A DNA stretch of 64,000 bases from Rubellimicrobium aerolatum (GTDB taxonomy: Bacteria; Pseudomonadota; Alphaproteobacteria; Rhodobacterales; Rhodobacteraceae). Positions 21,833 through 28,861 of this stretch are shown here, piece after piece. A program made the translations under genes and the position numbers. Each line of letters starts with the position of its first letter. Position 1 is the first letter of the stretch. A model generated the notes under the pieces. It did not search any database. It was given only the letters and a program-made list of their open reading frames with translations, and was not told the origin of the DNA. The stretch spans positions 1 to 64,000 of the forward strand of contig NZ_JAGGJP010000010.1 in the NCBI RefSeq assembly GCF_017872975.1, given 5' to 3'.

Positions 21833-22854
21833 AGGCCCTGGTCAAGGAGTCCCCCGGCGAGGGCCTGACCCTGCGCGACGAGCCCCGCCCGAGGATCGGT
21901 CCCGACGACGTGCTGATCCGCGTCCGCAAGACCGGCATCTGCGGCACCGACATCCACATCTGGGCCTGGGACGACTGGGCCGCCCGCACCGTCCCCACCC
22001 CGCTGATCACCGGCCACGAGTTCGCCGGGGAGATCGTGGAGCTCGGCCGCGACGTGACGGACCTCCGCCTCGGCCAGCGCGTCTCCGGCGAAGGCCACCT
22101 CATCGGCAAGACCTCCCGCCAGTCCCGCTCCGGCCGTTTCCACCTCGACCCCGAGACGCGCGGCATCGGCGTCAACGAGCCCGGCGCCTTCGCCGACTAC
22201 CTGCGCCTCCCCGCCTTCAACGCCGTCCCCCTCCCCGACAGCATCGACGACGAGATCGGCAGCATCCTCGACCCCCTCGGCAACGCCGTCCACACCGCGC
22301 TGTCCTTCGACCTGATCGGAGAGGATGTCCTCGTGACCGGCGCCGGCCCCATCGGCATCATGGCCGCCGCCGTCGCCCGCCACGTGGGCGCGCGGAACGT
22401 CGTCGTGACCGACGTGAACCCCCTTCGCCTCGACCTCGCCGCCAAGGTCGCCGACGTGACCCCCGTCAACGTCGCGCAGGAGGACCTCCGCGACGTGATG
22501 GCCCGCCTCCACATGGTGCAGGGCTTCGACGTGGGGCTGGAGATGTCCGGCTCCCAGGCCGCCCTCGACCAGATGGTTGAATCCCTCGTCATGGGCGGCC
22601 GCATCGCCCTCCTTGGCATCCCGCCCGGCAAGAGCCCCGTGGACTGGAGCCGCATCGTCCTCAAGGCCCTGACCATCAAGGGCGTCTACGGCCGCGAGAT
22701 CTTCGAGACCTGGTACAAGATGATCGCCATGCTGGAGAACGGCCTCGACGTGCGCCCCGTCATCACCCACCGCTTCAAGGTCGCCGACTACCGCGAGGCC
22801 TTCGAGACCATGCGCTCCGGCCGCTCCGGCAAGGTCGTCCTCGACTGGACGTGA
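21829..22854 (+). CDS. tdh: L-threonine 3-dehydrogenase lacking the structural zinc cysteines
   Basis: 341 residues, zinc-type medium-chain dehydrogenase. The catalytic zinc ligands C38 (ICGTD), H63 and E64 (GHEFAG) and the NAD-binding GAGPIGIMAAAVA are present, and VGARNVVVTDVN and KGVYGREIFETWYKM match the E. coli enzyme closely. In E. coli Tdh the structural zinc is held by C93, C96, C99 and C107; the same columns here are G93, S96, S99 and D107, so that zinc cannot bind in the usual way. It oxidises threonine to 2-amino-3-ketobutyrate for Kbl. The GTGA at its end starts the next small gene. Confidence 0.94.
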   Translation: MKALVKESPGEGLTLRDEPRPRIGPDDVLIRVRKTGICGTDIHIWAWDDWAARTVPTPLITGHEFAGEIVELGRDVTDLRLGQRVSGEGHLIGKTSRQSRSGRFHLDPETRGIGVNEPGAFADYLRLPAFNAVPLPDSIDDEIGSILDPLGNAVHTALSFDLIGEDVLVTGAGPIGIMAAAVARHVGARNVVVTDVNPLRLDLAAKVADVTPVNVAQEDLRDVMARLHMVQGFDVGLEMSGSQAALDQMVESLVMGGRIALLGIPPGKSPVDWSRIVLKALTIKGVYGREIFETWYKMIAMLENGLDVRPVITHRFKVADYREAFETMRSGRSGKVVLDWT

Positions 22855-23201
22855 GGCATCCCGTCACTCCCGACGGCCGCTACTTCGTGGTGCGCGGCCG
22901 CCTCTGGCGGATGTCCGACCCGTCGCTCGACCCGGCCACGCGCGAAGCCCTCGTCCGCGACCTCATGTCCGCCCGCCGAGCCGTCCGCGACGCGAAGGGC
23001 GACGCGCAGGCCCTCCGCGACGCCCGCGCCCGCGTGGACGCCGCCAAGCGCGCCTTGGGCGAGCGCGGCCCGGTCTGGTGGACCGACGGCGCCCCCGACC
23101 TCAACCGCCGCATGGCGCGGACGACCCCCTACGCCGACTGGTTCGCGAGCCTGCCGCACCCTTCGCAGGGCGGGGGTCCACCCTGCGCGGCCCACCCATG
23201 A
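22851..23201 (+). CDS. Conserved small hypothetical protein coupled to tdh
   Basis: 116 residues. The GTG start overlaps the tdh stop (GTGA). The pattern PDGRYFVVRGRLWRMSDPSL, a central charged helix (ALVRDLMSARRAVRDAKGD), and ERGPVWWTDGAPDLNRRM recur in small uncharacterised proteins that I recognise from many bacteria. No signal peptide and no catalytic motif. The tail after about residue 95 (TPYADWFASLPHPSQGG) is low-complexity. Function unknown; co-translation with tdh may be position only. Confidence 0.7.
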   Translation: MRHPVTPDGRYFVVRGRLWRMSDPSLDPATREALVRDLMSARRAVRDAKGDAQALRDARARVDAAKRALGERGPVWWTDGAPDLNRRMARTTPYADWFASLPHPSQGGGPPCAAHP

Positions 23202-23244: not shown

Positions 23245-23502
23245 TCACTCCCCCTGATGCGTCCCCCGCGTCCGCGCCTCCTGATCGTCCCCCCTCGGCC
23301 CGCGCAGGTCCCCGGTCTCCCGCAGCCCTCGCGCGTCCTCCGTCACGTCCACCTCCCGGATGCGCTCCCGCACGCTCTCGGGCAGGTCCTTCGCCCGCTT
23401 GAGATCATGCTCCGCCGGGAACTCCGGCCCGGCGTTCGGCGGCTCGGTCTGCCGGCCGGGAAGCGTCCCCTGCCGCGTGTCGGACTTGTTGGAACCGACC
23501 AT
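23245..23502 (-). CDS. Small hydrophilic protein, probable general-stress protein
   Basis: 85 residues, highly charged, no hydrophobic segment: SDTRQGTLPGRQTEPPNAGP, then EFPAEHDLKRAKDLPESVRERIREVDVTE. I do not recognise a family. The ATG was chosen because GAGGAGGA stands nine bases upstream; a longer frame to 23616 has no such site. The leader resembles that of the DUF3072 gene at 35902-36123 (both read ACAGCA, then a purine-rich GGAGGACA or GGAGAGGACA before the start). A GGAAC-N17-CGTT promoter lies about 40-65 bases upstream, consistent with general stress control. Confidence 0.6.
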   Translation of the reverse strand: MVGSNKSDTRQGTLPGRQTEPPNAGPEFPAEHDLKRAKDLPESVRERIREVDVTEDARGLRETGDLRGPRGDDQEARTRGTHQGE

Positions 23503-23539
23503 GCCCTGTCCTCCTCGGATGCTGTCGGAATGCCCGAAC

Positions 23540-23567
23540 GGAACGCCCAGGCCTCCGACGCCGTTCC
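23540..23567. promoter_or_regulatory. Symmetrical EcfG-type (general stress sigma) promoter
   Basis: On the plus strand GGAAC (23540-23544) and CGTT (23562-23565) stand 17 bases apart. On the minus strand GGAAC (23567-23563) and CGTT (23545-23542) are also 17 bases apart. Both orientations match the GGAAC-N16-17-CGTT consensus of EcfG sigma factors exactly and use the same bases. One direction leads to the small protein at 23245-23502, the other to the MFS/ABC operon starting at 23667. Confidence 0.7.
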
Positions 23568-23666
23568 AACGAAAGCGCCCCCCGAAGACCCCGCCCCTCT
23601 GGACCTTCCCCCGCAAAGACCCCAGAACCTCTCCCGCGACCTCCTCCCCCCAAGGACTCCCGCGCC

Positions 23667-24796
23667 GTGACCTCCGCCTGCAACGTCCCGTCCGACGGGG
23701 CCGCCCCCGCCGGCTTCGCCTCGCGCCTGTTCGCCTCCGGGGCGCTGTCCTTCTTCCTTCTCGGGATGCTCCCCGCGCTGTTCGGCGTGGCGCTCCCCGT
23801 CTGGTCGCAGGCCTTCGGCCTCGCCCCAGGGCAGGGCGGCACCCTCATCGCCACCTACAACGCCGGGGCCGCCCTCGCCGTCGCGGCGGGCGTCCTCGGC
23901 CTTCCTGGCCTCGCCATGCGCCCGGCGCTGGTGGCGGTGACGCTCGGGGCCACGGGCCTCGCCCTCGGCGCGACCTGGGGCCTCCTGCTGACCGGCGCGC
24001 TGGTCGCGGGCCTGGGCTTCGGCATCCTCGCCGCCGCCGTCAACCGCCGCTTCCTGACCGACTTCGGCCCGCGCGGCCCCGGCATGGTGTCGCTGGTCAA
24101 CGCCATCTTCGGCCTCGGCGCGATCCTGTCCCCCCTGCTGTTCCTCGCGATGGGCGGCGCGCCCCAGGCCGTGTTCTGGACCGTCGCCGCCCTGTCGGCC
24201 CTCGCCCTCGCCCTCTCGGGACCCGAGCCCTTCCGCACCGCCGCCCCCGGCCTGCCGCCCCTCTCCCCGCGCCTCCTGCTCCTCCTCCTCCTCTTCGGCG
24301 CGGTGGTGATCGAATCGGCGCTGATCGGCCTCGGGGCCTCCGCCCTCGTGGACCTCGGCTTCTCGGAAACCTCCACCGCCCGCCTCGTCTCCGCCTTCTT
24401 CCTGGCCTTCGTCGCGGGCCGCATGGCCCTGGCCGCCGTCAGCCACCGCCTGCCCCCGGACCTGATGTTCCTCGGCGGCGTCGCCGGCGCGACCGCCGGC
24501 GCGGCGCTGGCGATCCTGTCCCCCGCCTGGGGCTTCGTCCTGTCGGGGGCCTTCGCGGCGGTCTGCTTCCCGGCCTTCTTCGTCTGGGCCACCCGCCTCC
24601 TCGGCCCCGACCCCCGCATGGGCGCGGCGATCCTCGCCTCCGGCCTCCTCGCCGGCACCCTTGGCCCCGTCGCGCTCCGCCCTATCCTCGGCTCGGTCGG
24701 CGAGGAGGGCCTGTTCTGGATCCTGAGCGTCTTCGGAACCCTGCTGACGGCGGTGGTGGCCCTGGTCCTGCCGCGCGCCCGCCGCCTCCATCCGCG

Positions 24797-24800
<4 letters not shown>
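23667..24800 (+). CDS. MFS transporter at the head of an AttEFGH-like operon
   Basis: 377 residues, with about twelve hydrophobic helices (FASGALSFFLLGML, FGVALPVWS, and onward). LTDFGPRGPGMVSLVNAIFGLG and the repeat-like SAFFLAFVAGRMALA are MFS segments, but the A-motif is weak. The GTG start was taken; a weak AAGGA stands about ten bases upstream. The stop overlaps the TTG of the ABC ATPase (TTGA), so it is part of the same transcript. Substrate unknown. Confidence 0.8.
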
Positions 24801-25458
<658 letters not shown>

Positions 25459-25462
<4 letters not shown>

Positions 25463-27846
25463 CCCGCGCCGGCCTCCACGCCCTCCTGTCCCACTGGCGC
25501 CGCCACCCGCTCCAGCTCTTCACGCTCCTCGCCGGCCTCGCCCTCGCCACCGCTCTCTGGTCCGGCGTCCAGGCCATCAACACCGAGGCCCGCGCCTCCT
25601 ACGCCCAGGCCGCCGACACGCTGGGCGAGGGCCGCCTCACCCGCCTCCTCCCCCCCGAGGGCGCGACGATCCCCGAAGCCACCTGGGTCGCCCTGCGCCG
25701 CGCCGGCTGGCTGGCGAGCCCCCTCGTCGAGGGCCGCCTCGGCCCCGCCCGCCTCCTCGGCATCGACCCCCTCACCACCCCCGTCCAGACCGGCCCCATC
25801 GAGGAGGCCGACACCGCCGACCTCCAGGCCTTCCTCGCCCCCCAAGGCGCGCTCCTCGGGCGCGAGGATACCCTCGCCGCCCTCCCCGACACCGGCGCGA
25901 CCCCGATCCCGTCCCCGGACGCCGCCCCCGGCACGGTGCTGACCGACATCACCACCGCCCAGCGCCTCCTCGGGCTGGACGGCTTCACCAGCCTGCTCCT
26001 CGCCCCCGACCAGCCCCGCCGCCAGACCCCGCTCGCGCAGGTCGCCCCCACCCTCCGCCTGCAACCACCCGACCAGTCCACTGACCCGGCGGCCCTCACC
26101 GACTCCTTCCACCTCAACATCACCGCCTTCGGCCTCCTGTCCTTCGCCGTCGGCCTGTTCATCGTCCACGGCGCCGTCGGCCTCGCCTTCGAGCAGCGCC
26201 GCCCCACCGTCCGCACCCTTCGCGCCCTCGGGATGCCGCTCCGCGCGCTCATCGCGCTCATGGCCCTCGAACTCGCGCTCCTCGCCCTCCTCGCCGGCGC
26301 GCTCGGCCTCCTCCTCGGCTACCTCATCGCCGCCGCGCTGCTGCCCGACGTGGCCGGCACCCTGCGCGGCCTCTACGGGGCCGAGGTCGCGGGCACGCTC
26401 ACCTTCCGCCCACTTTGGGCGCTCTCCGGCCTCGCCATCGCGCTCGCCGGCACGGCGGTCGCCGCCGCCAGCGCGCTGCGCCGCCTCGCCACCACGCCGC
26501 TCCTCGCCGGGGGCACCCGCCGCGCCGGCGCGCGCTGGGCCGCCCGCCGCGCCCGCACCCAGGGCCTCGTCGGGGCGGCGCTCCTGCTGCTGTCCCTCGC
26601 CCTCGGCCTCTGGGGCGGCGGCCTCGTCGGCGGCTTCGCGACGCTCGGCACCCTGATGATCGGCGGCGCGCTCCTCCTGCCGCTCCTCCTCGACCGAGTC
26701 CTCGCGCTCGGCCAGCACCTTGCCCGCAACCCCCTCCCGCAATGGATCTGGGCCGACGCCCGGTCGGAACTCCCCGGCCTCTCCCTCGCCCTCATGGCGC
26801 TCCTCCTCGCCATGGCCGCCAACGTCGGCGTCTCCACGATGGTCAGCAGCTTCCGCCAGACCTTCACCGGCTTCCTCGACCAGCGCCTCGCGCCCGAGCT
26901 CTACGTCGGCGTCTCCACCCCCGCGCAGGCCGAGGCCCTCCTCGCCGCCCTTCCCGGAACCGTCCGCGCCCTCCCCATCGCCTCCGTGGACCGCCCCCTC
27001 GCCGGCCTCCCCGCCGAGGTGCAGATCCTCCGCGACGATCCCACGTATCGCGAGAACTGGCGCTTCCTCTCCGCCGCCCCCGATCCCTGGGACCAACTGG
27101 CGGCGGGGCAGGGGGTCCTCGTCAACGAACAGCTCGCCCGCCGCGCGGGCCTCGCGGTCGGCGACCCCCTCGCCGTCACCGACGCCCTGACCCTCCCGAT
27201 CCTCGGCATCTACGGCGACTACGGCAACGCCGTGGGGCAGGCGATCCTGACCGAACCCCTGTTCCGCGATGCCTTCCCCGAGGTCGTCCCCCTCTCCTTC
27301 GGCCTCCGCCTCCCCCCCGCCGATGTCCCCGCCCTCGCCGAGAGCCTGACCACCGACCTCGGCCTCGACCCCGCCCGCGTGGTCAACCAGTCCAACCTCA
27401 AGGCGATCAGCTTGGGCATCTTCGAGCGCACCTTCGCCGTCACCGCCGCCCTCAACGTCCTGACGCTCGCGGTCGCCGGCTTCGCGCTCCTCATGTCCCT
27501 CCTGACGCTGGCCTCCATCCGCCTCCCCCAGCTCGCCCCCGTCTGGGCCTTGGGCACCCGCCGCGCCACCCTCGGCCGCCTCGAACTGCTGCGCGCCGTC
27601 GGCCTGTCCGCCCTCACCGCCCTCGCCGCGCTCCCCCTGGGCCTCGCCCTCGCCTGGGTCCTCCTGGCGGTGGTCAACGTCGAGGCCTTCGGCTGGCGCC
27701 TGCCGATGTTCCTGTTCCCCCTGGACTGGCTCCGCCTCCTCGCCCTCGCCCTCCTCGCGGCGGCGCTGGCCGCCCTCTGGCCCGCGATCCGCCTCGCCCG
27801 AGTCCCCCCCTCGCTCCTCCTCAAGGTGTTCTCGGATGAACGCTAA
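25459..27846 (+). CDS. FtsX-like ABC transporter permease
   Basis: 795 residues. One N-terminal anchor (about 15-40), a large periplasmic region (about 50-205), three helices near 215-345, a second pair of helices around 375-405, a second periplasmic region (about 450-630), and three helices at the end. This is the double MacB/FtsX layout of permeases that move lipids, lipoproteins or toxic compounds to or from the outer face. With the ATPase before it and the CrtC-like protein after it, it matches the attE-attF/G-attH operons of Agrobacterium-type bacteria. Its stop lies 11 bases inside the next gene. Confidence 0.9.
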
Positions 27847-28861
27847 GGCCCTGTTCCTCGCTTTGGCGCCATTCCCCGCCCAAGCCCAAGGCTTCGCCAA
27901 TCTCGGCACCTCCATCGAAGGCTACGCCCTCCCCCAACCCGGCACCGCCTTCACCTTCCCCCAGGACCACGGCGCGCACCCCGCCTTCCGCATCGAATGG
28001 TGGTATGTCACCGCCAACCTCACCGGCCCGGACGGCACCCCCTACGGCCTGCAATGGACGCTGTTCCGCTCCGCCCTCGCCCCCGACAGCGCCCCCACGT
28101 CCCAGGTCTGGATGGCCCACGCCGCCGTCACCACCCCCGACGCCCACCACGTCGCCGAGCGCCTCGCGCGCGGCGGCCCCGGCCAGGCCGGCGTCACCGC
28201 CGACCCCTTCGAGGCCTGGATCGACGAATGGCGGCTCATGGGCGACAACCTCGAAACGGCAACCCTATCCGCCCAAGGCCCCGACTGGGGCTACGACATG
28301 ACCCTGACCGCCCAGGGCCCCATCGTCCTCCAAGGCGACCAAGGCTATTCCGTGAAATCCGAGGACGGCCAGGCCAGCCACTACTACTCCCAGCCCTTCT
28401 TCGCCGTCACCGGCACCCTCCACCTCCCCGATGGCGACATCCCCGTGACCGGCAACGCCTGGCTCGACCGCGAGTGGTCCTCCCAGCCCCTCGCCGACCG
28501 CCAGACCGGCTGGGACTGGTTCTCCCTGTCCTTCGCGAGCGGCGAGAAGCTCATGGCCTTCCGCCTCCGCGCCGACGAGGGAGCCCCCTTCACCGCCGCC
28601 ACGTGGATCGCCCCCGACGGCACCCCCACGCCCTTCCCGACGGGAGCCTTCACCGCCACCCCCGGCGACACGACGACCGTCGCTGACCGCGAGATCCCCA
28701 CCGAATGGCGCGTCCAGCTTCCCGACCGCGCCCTCGACGCGACCGTGACGGCCCTGAATCCTCAGGCGTGGATGGAGACCTCCGTCCCCTACTGGGAAGG
28801 CCCCGTCACCGTCACCGGCTCCCACGAGGGCACAGGCTACCTCGAAATGACCGGCTACTAG
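27836..28861 (+). CDS. AttH/CrtC-like lipocalin-domain protein
   Basis: 341 residues. A short hydrophobic N-terminus (AKALFLALAPFPAQAQG) looks like a signal peptide. RIEWWYVTANLTGPDG is the hallmark of the CrtC/AttH family, and NAWLDREWSSQPLADRQTGWDWFSLSF is the second conserved block. The fold is two lipocalin-like barrels; carotenoid 1,2-hydratase belongs to the same fold but AttH-like proteins are thought to bind a hydrophobic ligand handled by the ABC transporter. A carotenoid role has no other support here. Overlaps the permease by 11 bases and is followed by repeat copy 2 and a terminator. Confidence 0.85.
   Translation: MNAKALFLALAPFPAQAQGFANLGTSIEGYALPQPGTAFTFPQDHGAHPAFRIEWWYVTANLTGPDGTPYGLQWTLFRSALAPDSAPTSQVWMAHAAVTTPDAHHVAERLARGGPGQAGVTADPFEAWIDEWRLMGDNLETATLSAQGPDWGYDMTLTAQGPIVLQGDQGYSVKSEDGQASHYYSQPFFAVTGTLHLPDGDIPVTGNAWLDREWSSQPLADRQTGWDWFSLSFASGEKLMAFRLRADEGAPFTAATWIAPDGTPTPFPTGAFTATPGDTTTVADREIPTEWRVQLPDRALDATVTALNPQAWMETSVPYWEGPVTVTGSHEGTGYLEMTGY

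Follow-up and report, generated by a model that had tools for sequence, protein, structure and literature searches.

Locus and palindromic element

The window is the whole 64-kb stretch of Rubellimicrobium aerolatum DNA analysed here. A small hydrophilic protein of 85 amino acids is encoded on the reverse strand (23245..23502); it matches no Pfam or NCBIfam family at E 0.001. Its ribosome-binding site, GAGGAGG, lies at 23510..23516 on the same strand. An operon runs divergently on the forward strand and encodes an MFS transporter (PF07690, 23667..24800, GTG start at 23667) as its first gene, an ABC transporter ATPase (24797..25462), an FtsX-type permease (25459..27846) and a CrtC/Lipocalin_9 (AttH-like) protein (27836..28861). 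Both flanks are as an earlier sequence-only reading of this DNA had described them. Named relatives of the MFS protein are those of Rubellimicrobium arenae (76% identity over the best segment), R. mesophilum (74%) and R. sp. CFH 75288 (59%). In R. mesophilum a second, tandem MFS gene (L051:2848-3963) separates the small gene from the MFS orthologue, and this copy is the divergent neighbour of the small gene there. A further protein of 116 amino acids, without Pfam or NCBIfam match, is encoded at 22851-23201 of the window; relatives of it adjoin a dehydrogenase gene in L051 and L052, and another was seen in L054.

The element between the divergent genes occupies 23540..23567 and was characterized by direct reading, motif scan and shuffles. 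It is 28 bases long and reads GGAACG CCCAGGCCTCCGACGC CGTTCC, i.e. GGAACG-N16-CGTTCC. Symmetry is limited to the arms; the 16 bases between them form no perfect palindrome. The boxes of an EcfG promoter (-35 GGAAC, spacer 16–17, -10 CGTT) are present on both strands, and the claim that GGAAC-N17-CGTT occurs exactly in both directions within the same 28 bases holds by reading and by scan. Toward the small gene (23542..23567, reverse strand), -35 GGAAC at 23567-23563 is followed by N17 and -10 CGTT at 23545-23542. Toward the MFS operon (23540..23565, forward strand), -35 GGAAC at 23540-23544 is followed by N17 and -10 CGTT at 23562-23565. Measured between their starts, the -10 boxes of the two readings are 20 bp apart; each shares bases with the -35 of the other reading, and the offset between the two opposed promoters is 2 bp. 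These are the only two matches of GGAAC-N16/17-CGTT in the window; shuffled versions hold 0.35 on average, and two or more occur in 4 of 100. The symmetric form, GGAACG-N15/16-CGTTCC, occurs once in the window and at least once in 3 of 100 shuffles.

The small gene starts 40 bp from its -10 and the MFS gene 102 bp from the MFS-ward -10. Transcription is predicted to start near 23535 toward the small gene and near 23572 toward the MFS gene, the two predicted starts being about 35–39 bp apart. With initiation about 7 bases after the -10, the leader would measure about 33 nt and carry a strong ribosome site on the small-gene side, and would measure about 95 nt on the MFS side.

Tandem GAACG-GAACG at 23536..23545 (forward strand, by sequence) is the source of the MFS-ward -35. 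The related genome G061 carries GAACG in single copy, CCGAACGC, where the window has the tandem pair, and the second arm could stem from a 5-bp duplication of GAACG.

A separate block, CTGGAC-N18-CAGAAC, precedes the MFS start at 23599..23628 (forward strand) and was found by alignment of relatives. CTGGAC/A-N18-CA is present in all six sequences compared, namely five species and CFH 75288 (L052), the latter without an EcfG site. The block begins 60–68 bp upstream of the assumed MFS start, which is a TTG in G064 and that of the tandem MFS copy in G062; the stretch from G063 is 1925 bases long (its anchor was missed) and has no MFS-ward site, and its block line, taken from the last CTGGA, is unaffected. 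Scanning the DNA between the two divergent genes for sigma-70 promoters gave no hit, in the block or elsewhere. It may be an EcfG-independent promoter or operator, perhaps the operon's own promoter.

EcfG-type motif and symmetric sites in the genome

The genome encodes NepR (PF18557, above the curated cut-off), an adjoining sigma factor and a divergent PhyR, the last identified by its domains PhyR_sigma2, PhyR_sigma-like and Response_reg. NepR is present in all eight genus genomes searched, this one included. GGAAC-N16/17-CGTT has 76 matches genome-wide, against 41 for the reversed pattern, a control whose base composition differs from that of the real pattern and which outnumbers the real matches in most family genomes. 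Intergenic positions account for 61 of the 76, with 14.2% of the 412,930 bases examined being non-coding (some loci overlap, so that this total counts some DNA twice, while hits were de-duplicated; genes were called by a home-made codon model, so that start sites and intergenic labels are approximate). Of these 61, 54 point into a gene within 300 bp.

Variants of the -10 are intergenic in 17/19 cases for GGTT, 3/4 for AGTT and 2/2 for TGTT, against 1/23 for the sham box CGTC and 0/3 for CGTA. Variants of the first two -35 bases, combined with -10 C/GGTT, are intergenic in 7/7 cases for GCAAC and 4/4 for GAAAC and, ambiguously, in 3/7 for CGAAC and 2/3 for CCAAC; CAAAC does not occur in the loci examined. 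These loci were picked around exact matches and so do not sample the genome at random. GGTT is credible as a -10 in this genome. Among family genomes, that of the window left out, the plain motif separates those with NepR from those without it by a modest gap (median ratios 0.69 and 0.52, P 0.008).

The EcfG-type motif is a working promoter class in this genome. The element in the window is very probably a real EcfG promoter, because 61 of the 76 matches are intergenic in DNA of which only 14% is non-coding. Assignment to EcfG, as first proposed from the letters alone, is supported by the nepR-ecfG genes with divergent phyR and by the concentration of the motif in non-coding DNA upstream of genes.

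The EcfG consensus is almost its own reverse complement, since -10 CGTT complements the AACG within -35 GGAACG. Hence any promoter in which GGAAC is followed by G and CGTT by CC can be read in both directions. Palindromes GGAACG-N-CGTTCC with spacings of 2–32 number 26 in the genome. Spacings 15 and 16 hold six (4 and 2) against about 1.4 expected (Poisson P 0.003); the next commonest spacing is 22, with three. All six are intergenic, against 3/11 at other spacings, a figure that covers 11 of the 20 such palindromes. Another of the six, C2:8788-8814 (L034 / L086), lies between co-directional genes; its orthologous site in G066 (L092:1501-1527) is likewise palindromic, with a diverged spacer.

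In the family, 29 genomes with NepR above the cut-off hold 42 of 343 palindromes at spacing 15–16 (20.8 expected), and 31 genomes without NepR hold 17 of 319 (20.8 expected); G001, whose NepR match is below the cut-off, belongs to neither group. Without the genome of the window the former group holds 36 of 317 (19.4 expected; Fisher test against the group without NepR, P 0.004). The excess is uneven: G000, G004, G023, G047, G048 and G058 hold 29 of the 42 sites, and the other 23 genomes with NepR hold 13 against about 14.7 expected (by hand), i.e. no excess, setting aside the six highest being itself a biased step. Symmetric sites accumulate where EcfG exists, though unevenly.

Frequency of symmetric sites is about what independent bases give. 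Among 49 non-symmetric intergenic matches, G follows GGAAC in 14, CC follows CGTT in 8, and both are found in none, by definition. Independence predicts about 4.1 symmetric sites (14x8/27, by hand) and six are seen, so that selection is not needed. Symmetric sites lie between divergent genes in 3/6 cases in this genome and in 5/10 in relatives, where 9/10 are intergenic; ordinary intergenic sense matches do so in 18/46. Placement of symmetric sites at divergent pairs was rejected as evidence of selection, 8/16 and 18/46 showing no clear difference.

Conservation in relatives and competing explanations

The small protein is present in 5/8 genus genomes and in 5/6 of those at least 90% complete; the four other proteins are 64–76% identical to that of the window. 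Across a family sample of 295 genomes it was found in the window's own genome only, among the matches listed with at most 18 candidates scored per genome, and a plasmid search gave no match. An exact GGAACG-N16/17-CGTT points into the small gene in all five genomes that have the gene, the window's included, and the spacers are quite different. The sites of loci L050 and L051 are the same as those of G061 and G062 and are counted once. The ribosome site of the small gene (TCCTCCT on the forward strand) is invariant in the five-species alignment.

The MFS-ward -35 is GGAAC in the window, CGAAC in G061, GAAAC in G062, CCAAC in G063 and CAAAC in G064. CC after CGTT, part of this box, occurs in the window's genome only among the five compared. 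An exact MFS-ward promoter at the element is accordingly present in 1/5, with looser or relocated candidates in G061, G062 and G064. The reverse reading in G062 is GAAAC-N16-CGTT. In G064 (L054) a separate MFS-ward site, GGAAC-N16-GGTT, lies in the DNA that parts the small gene from the MFS gene; shuffling this stretch produces such a site in 0.4% of cases, the stretch being one of several inspected. The G after GGAAC, needed for an intact reverse -10, is found in 5/5 species. No EcfG site was found in CFH 75288 (L052), where the gene of 116 amino acids reaches almost to the MFS gene and leaves no room for the small gene.

Symmetry of the element is species-specific, because none of the other genomes compared has the opposite -35 in exact form. 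The proposal of one element serving two divergent units stands for the small-gene direction (exact in 5/5) but not, as a conserved feature, for the MFS direction (exact in 1/5). Relatives keep one half of the palindrome only, the very outcome that the sequence-only reading had named as speaking against it. In this species a single element may serve both divergent units, without conservation in relatives.

Probably, then, the element is an EcfG promoter whose conserved job is transcription of the 85-aa genus-specific gene, with an MFS-ward start plausible as well in this species. By sequence the motif is exact both ways, general-stress-response (GSR) genes are present in the genome, conservation is one-way and a separate block precedes the MFS gene; activity in each direction, the positions of the starts and steric exclusion are presumed from these. 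Released EcfG with core polymerase would bind the element in one orientation. The bases for two-way reading are present in this species, perhaps by way of the GAACG tandem duplication, and probably allow EcfG-RNA polymerase to initiate toward the MFS operon too, with a single polymerase on the element at any time. Whatever its history, the exact element should be able to fire MFS-ward; the chance that it does so in this species is about even or better, and the MFS gene may be a genuine EcfG target. The two footprints coincide, and one polymerase should therefore exclude the other at any moment, with a weight that would depend on the firing rate. 'Strictly mutual, competing' transcription, as once suggested for the element, goes too far: at two-way sigma-70 promoters of Escherichia coli, according to the accessible part of PMC12825309, competition is negligible at basal activity and arises once one direction is substantially activated.

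Several observations pull against so one-way a reading, namely the separate site in G064, GAAAC in G062, the G after GGAAC in 5/5, the excess of palindromes in genomes with NepR and the palindrome C2:8788 kept in G066. A two-way promoter held by selection, with both units as GSR targets and the MFS-ward arm diverged or relocated in relatives, is rather unlikely. It would explain the exact consensus on both strands, its sense to both genes and the suitable distances, and it can draw on the G064 site with its -10 GGTT (17/19 intergenic), on GAAAC as a possibly tolerated variant (4/4 intergenic with -10 C/GGTT) and on the excess in genomes with NepR taken together, with none in those without. It is opposed by the exact MFS-ward -35 in one species of five, by G063 with CCAAC only (2/3 intergenic) and L052 with none, and by symmetric sites being about as frequent as independent bases predict.

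The two remaining explanations dispense with a promoter or with function altogether. Perfect 6-bp inverted arms are also what a dimeric repressor or activator would bind at a plain inverted repeat, no promoter being present; this is very improbable and was rejected, since the excess lies at two adjoining spacings, which are those of EcfG (6/26 over spacings 2–32), and is confined to the group with NepR, and relatives keep the asymmetric promoter, not the palindrome. A chance match, functionless both ways, would accord with a single symmetric match in 64 kb, which is not extreme (3/100 shuffles). It is as improbable as a regulator site, and chance alone was rejected on the small-gene-ward promoter, exact in 5/5 diverged species.

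Interlocked nepR-ecfG and phyR promoters and known systems

Two exact EcfG promoters facing apart, with an offset of 7 bp, lie between nepR-ecfG and phyR in the same genome (C9:53639-53671, L102:1686-1718; GGAACCGAACG-N11-CGTTCGGTTCC). Inspected were 41 nepR loci, 34 from the family search and seven from further genus genomes. A divergent phyR is present at 38/41; the other three have none in the stretch examined. Second NepR-like genes, with no phyR within the 2.5 kb examined, were noted at L125 (G037), L128 (G046) and L119 (G022). Exact EcfG matches point toward both units at 23/38 loci and overlap at 22 of these 23, those of G048 being separate; exact matches are absent both ways at 7/38 and present in one direction only at 8/38. 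Overlapping exact pairs occur in 8/8 genus genomes and at 14/30 other loci. Their offset (first pair per locus, 22 loci) is 7 bp in 18, 8 bp in two and 6 bp in two. With relaxed boxes (G.AAC /.GTT), 31/38 overlap, with an offset of 7 in 23, 6 in six, 8 in one and 2 in one. In a class-wide sample the 7-bp pattern was found in 2/385 genomes, only 5/385 of them, the window's included, belonging to the window's family; the second match, in G503, has only a weak PhyR-like neighbour.

The better-conserved two-way EcfG element is that of nepR-ecfG/phyR, found at 22/38 family loci, against one species at the site in the window. Both units are already known to be driven by EcfG (PMC4814048, PMC8103513, as far as the text available of each goes). 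No description of the interlock was found in the running text of open-licence papers, in a set including the accessible parts of PMC6599016, PMC7083833, PMC12148442, PMC4814048, PMC8103513, PMC3892343, PMC3999984, PMC5830050 and PMC3073932.

A broader reading is offered tentatively, at somewhat less than even chance. Self-feedback of the GSR in this family would pass through one interlocked promoter of the sigma/anti-sigma operon nepR-ecfG and the anti-anti-sigma gene phyR. The same bases, about 32 bp with a fixed offset of about 7 bp, would serve both, and each polymerase engagement would yield the brake plus sigma or else the release factor, but not the two together. The palindrome in the window and others like it would be further two-way EcfG promoters, arising easily because the EcfG consensus is nearly self-complementary.

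With -35 and -10 boxes nearly self-complementary, two or so substitutions, or duplication of 5 bp, could turn a one-way ECF promoter into a two-way one and so bring neighbouring genes under shared stress control by a simple route. The genome offers a comparison between a young, non-conserved two-way element, that in the window, and the conserved interlocked one of nepR/phyR, which makes the effect of polymerase exclusion at a feedback promoter on the stress response testable. The interlocked nepR/phyR element is the part worth following.

Among known systems, general-stress promoters of EcfG (ECF15) resemble the element in both boxes, spacer and intergenic placement, and the genome encodes NepR, EcfG and PhyR. 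In the parts of the sources available, the consensus is given as GGAAC-N16-CGTT (PMC7083833, PMC3892343) or GAAC-N16,17-C/GGTT (PMC4814048), and for R. thermophilum two GSR loci are described and promoters predicted from GGAAC-N16-17-C/GGTT (PMC12148442). The element differs from these promoters in that its boxes extend further and thereby place the same promoter on the other strand as well.

Bidirectional sigma-70 promoters, as presented in the accessible text of PMC12825309, share with the element a pseudo-symmetric core and two polymerase orientations unable to bind together. They give divergent mRNAs, whereas two-way RNA from the element is a prediction from its sequence. Their -10 is shared and their starts are mostly 18 bp apart, also 10 or 23. 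The element has no such shared -10 with divergent starts: each -10 falls within the -35 of the other direction, the starts are predicted to be about 35–39 bp from each other and the sigma factor is of the ECF type.

In Pseudomonas syringae, by the portion of PMC5263251 available, ECF-sigma polymerase at one promoter of the hrpL/hrpJ pair interferes with the divergent neighbour; the other promoter is sigma-54 dependent and the two sites are adjacent, in contrast to the same bases at the element in the window. The nepR-ecfG/phyR pair (PMC4814048, PMC8103513, from the available parts of both) has two EcfG-dependent units back to back and promoters often interlocked in the family. Its offset is mostly 6–8 bp and conserved, whereas the site in the window falls outside this range, with an offset of 2 bp in one species.
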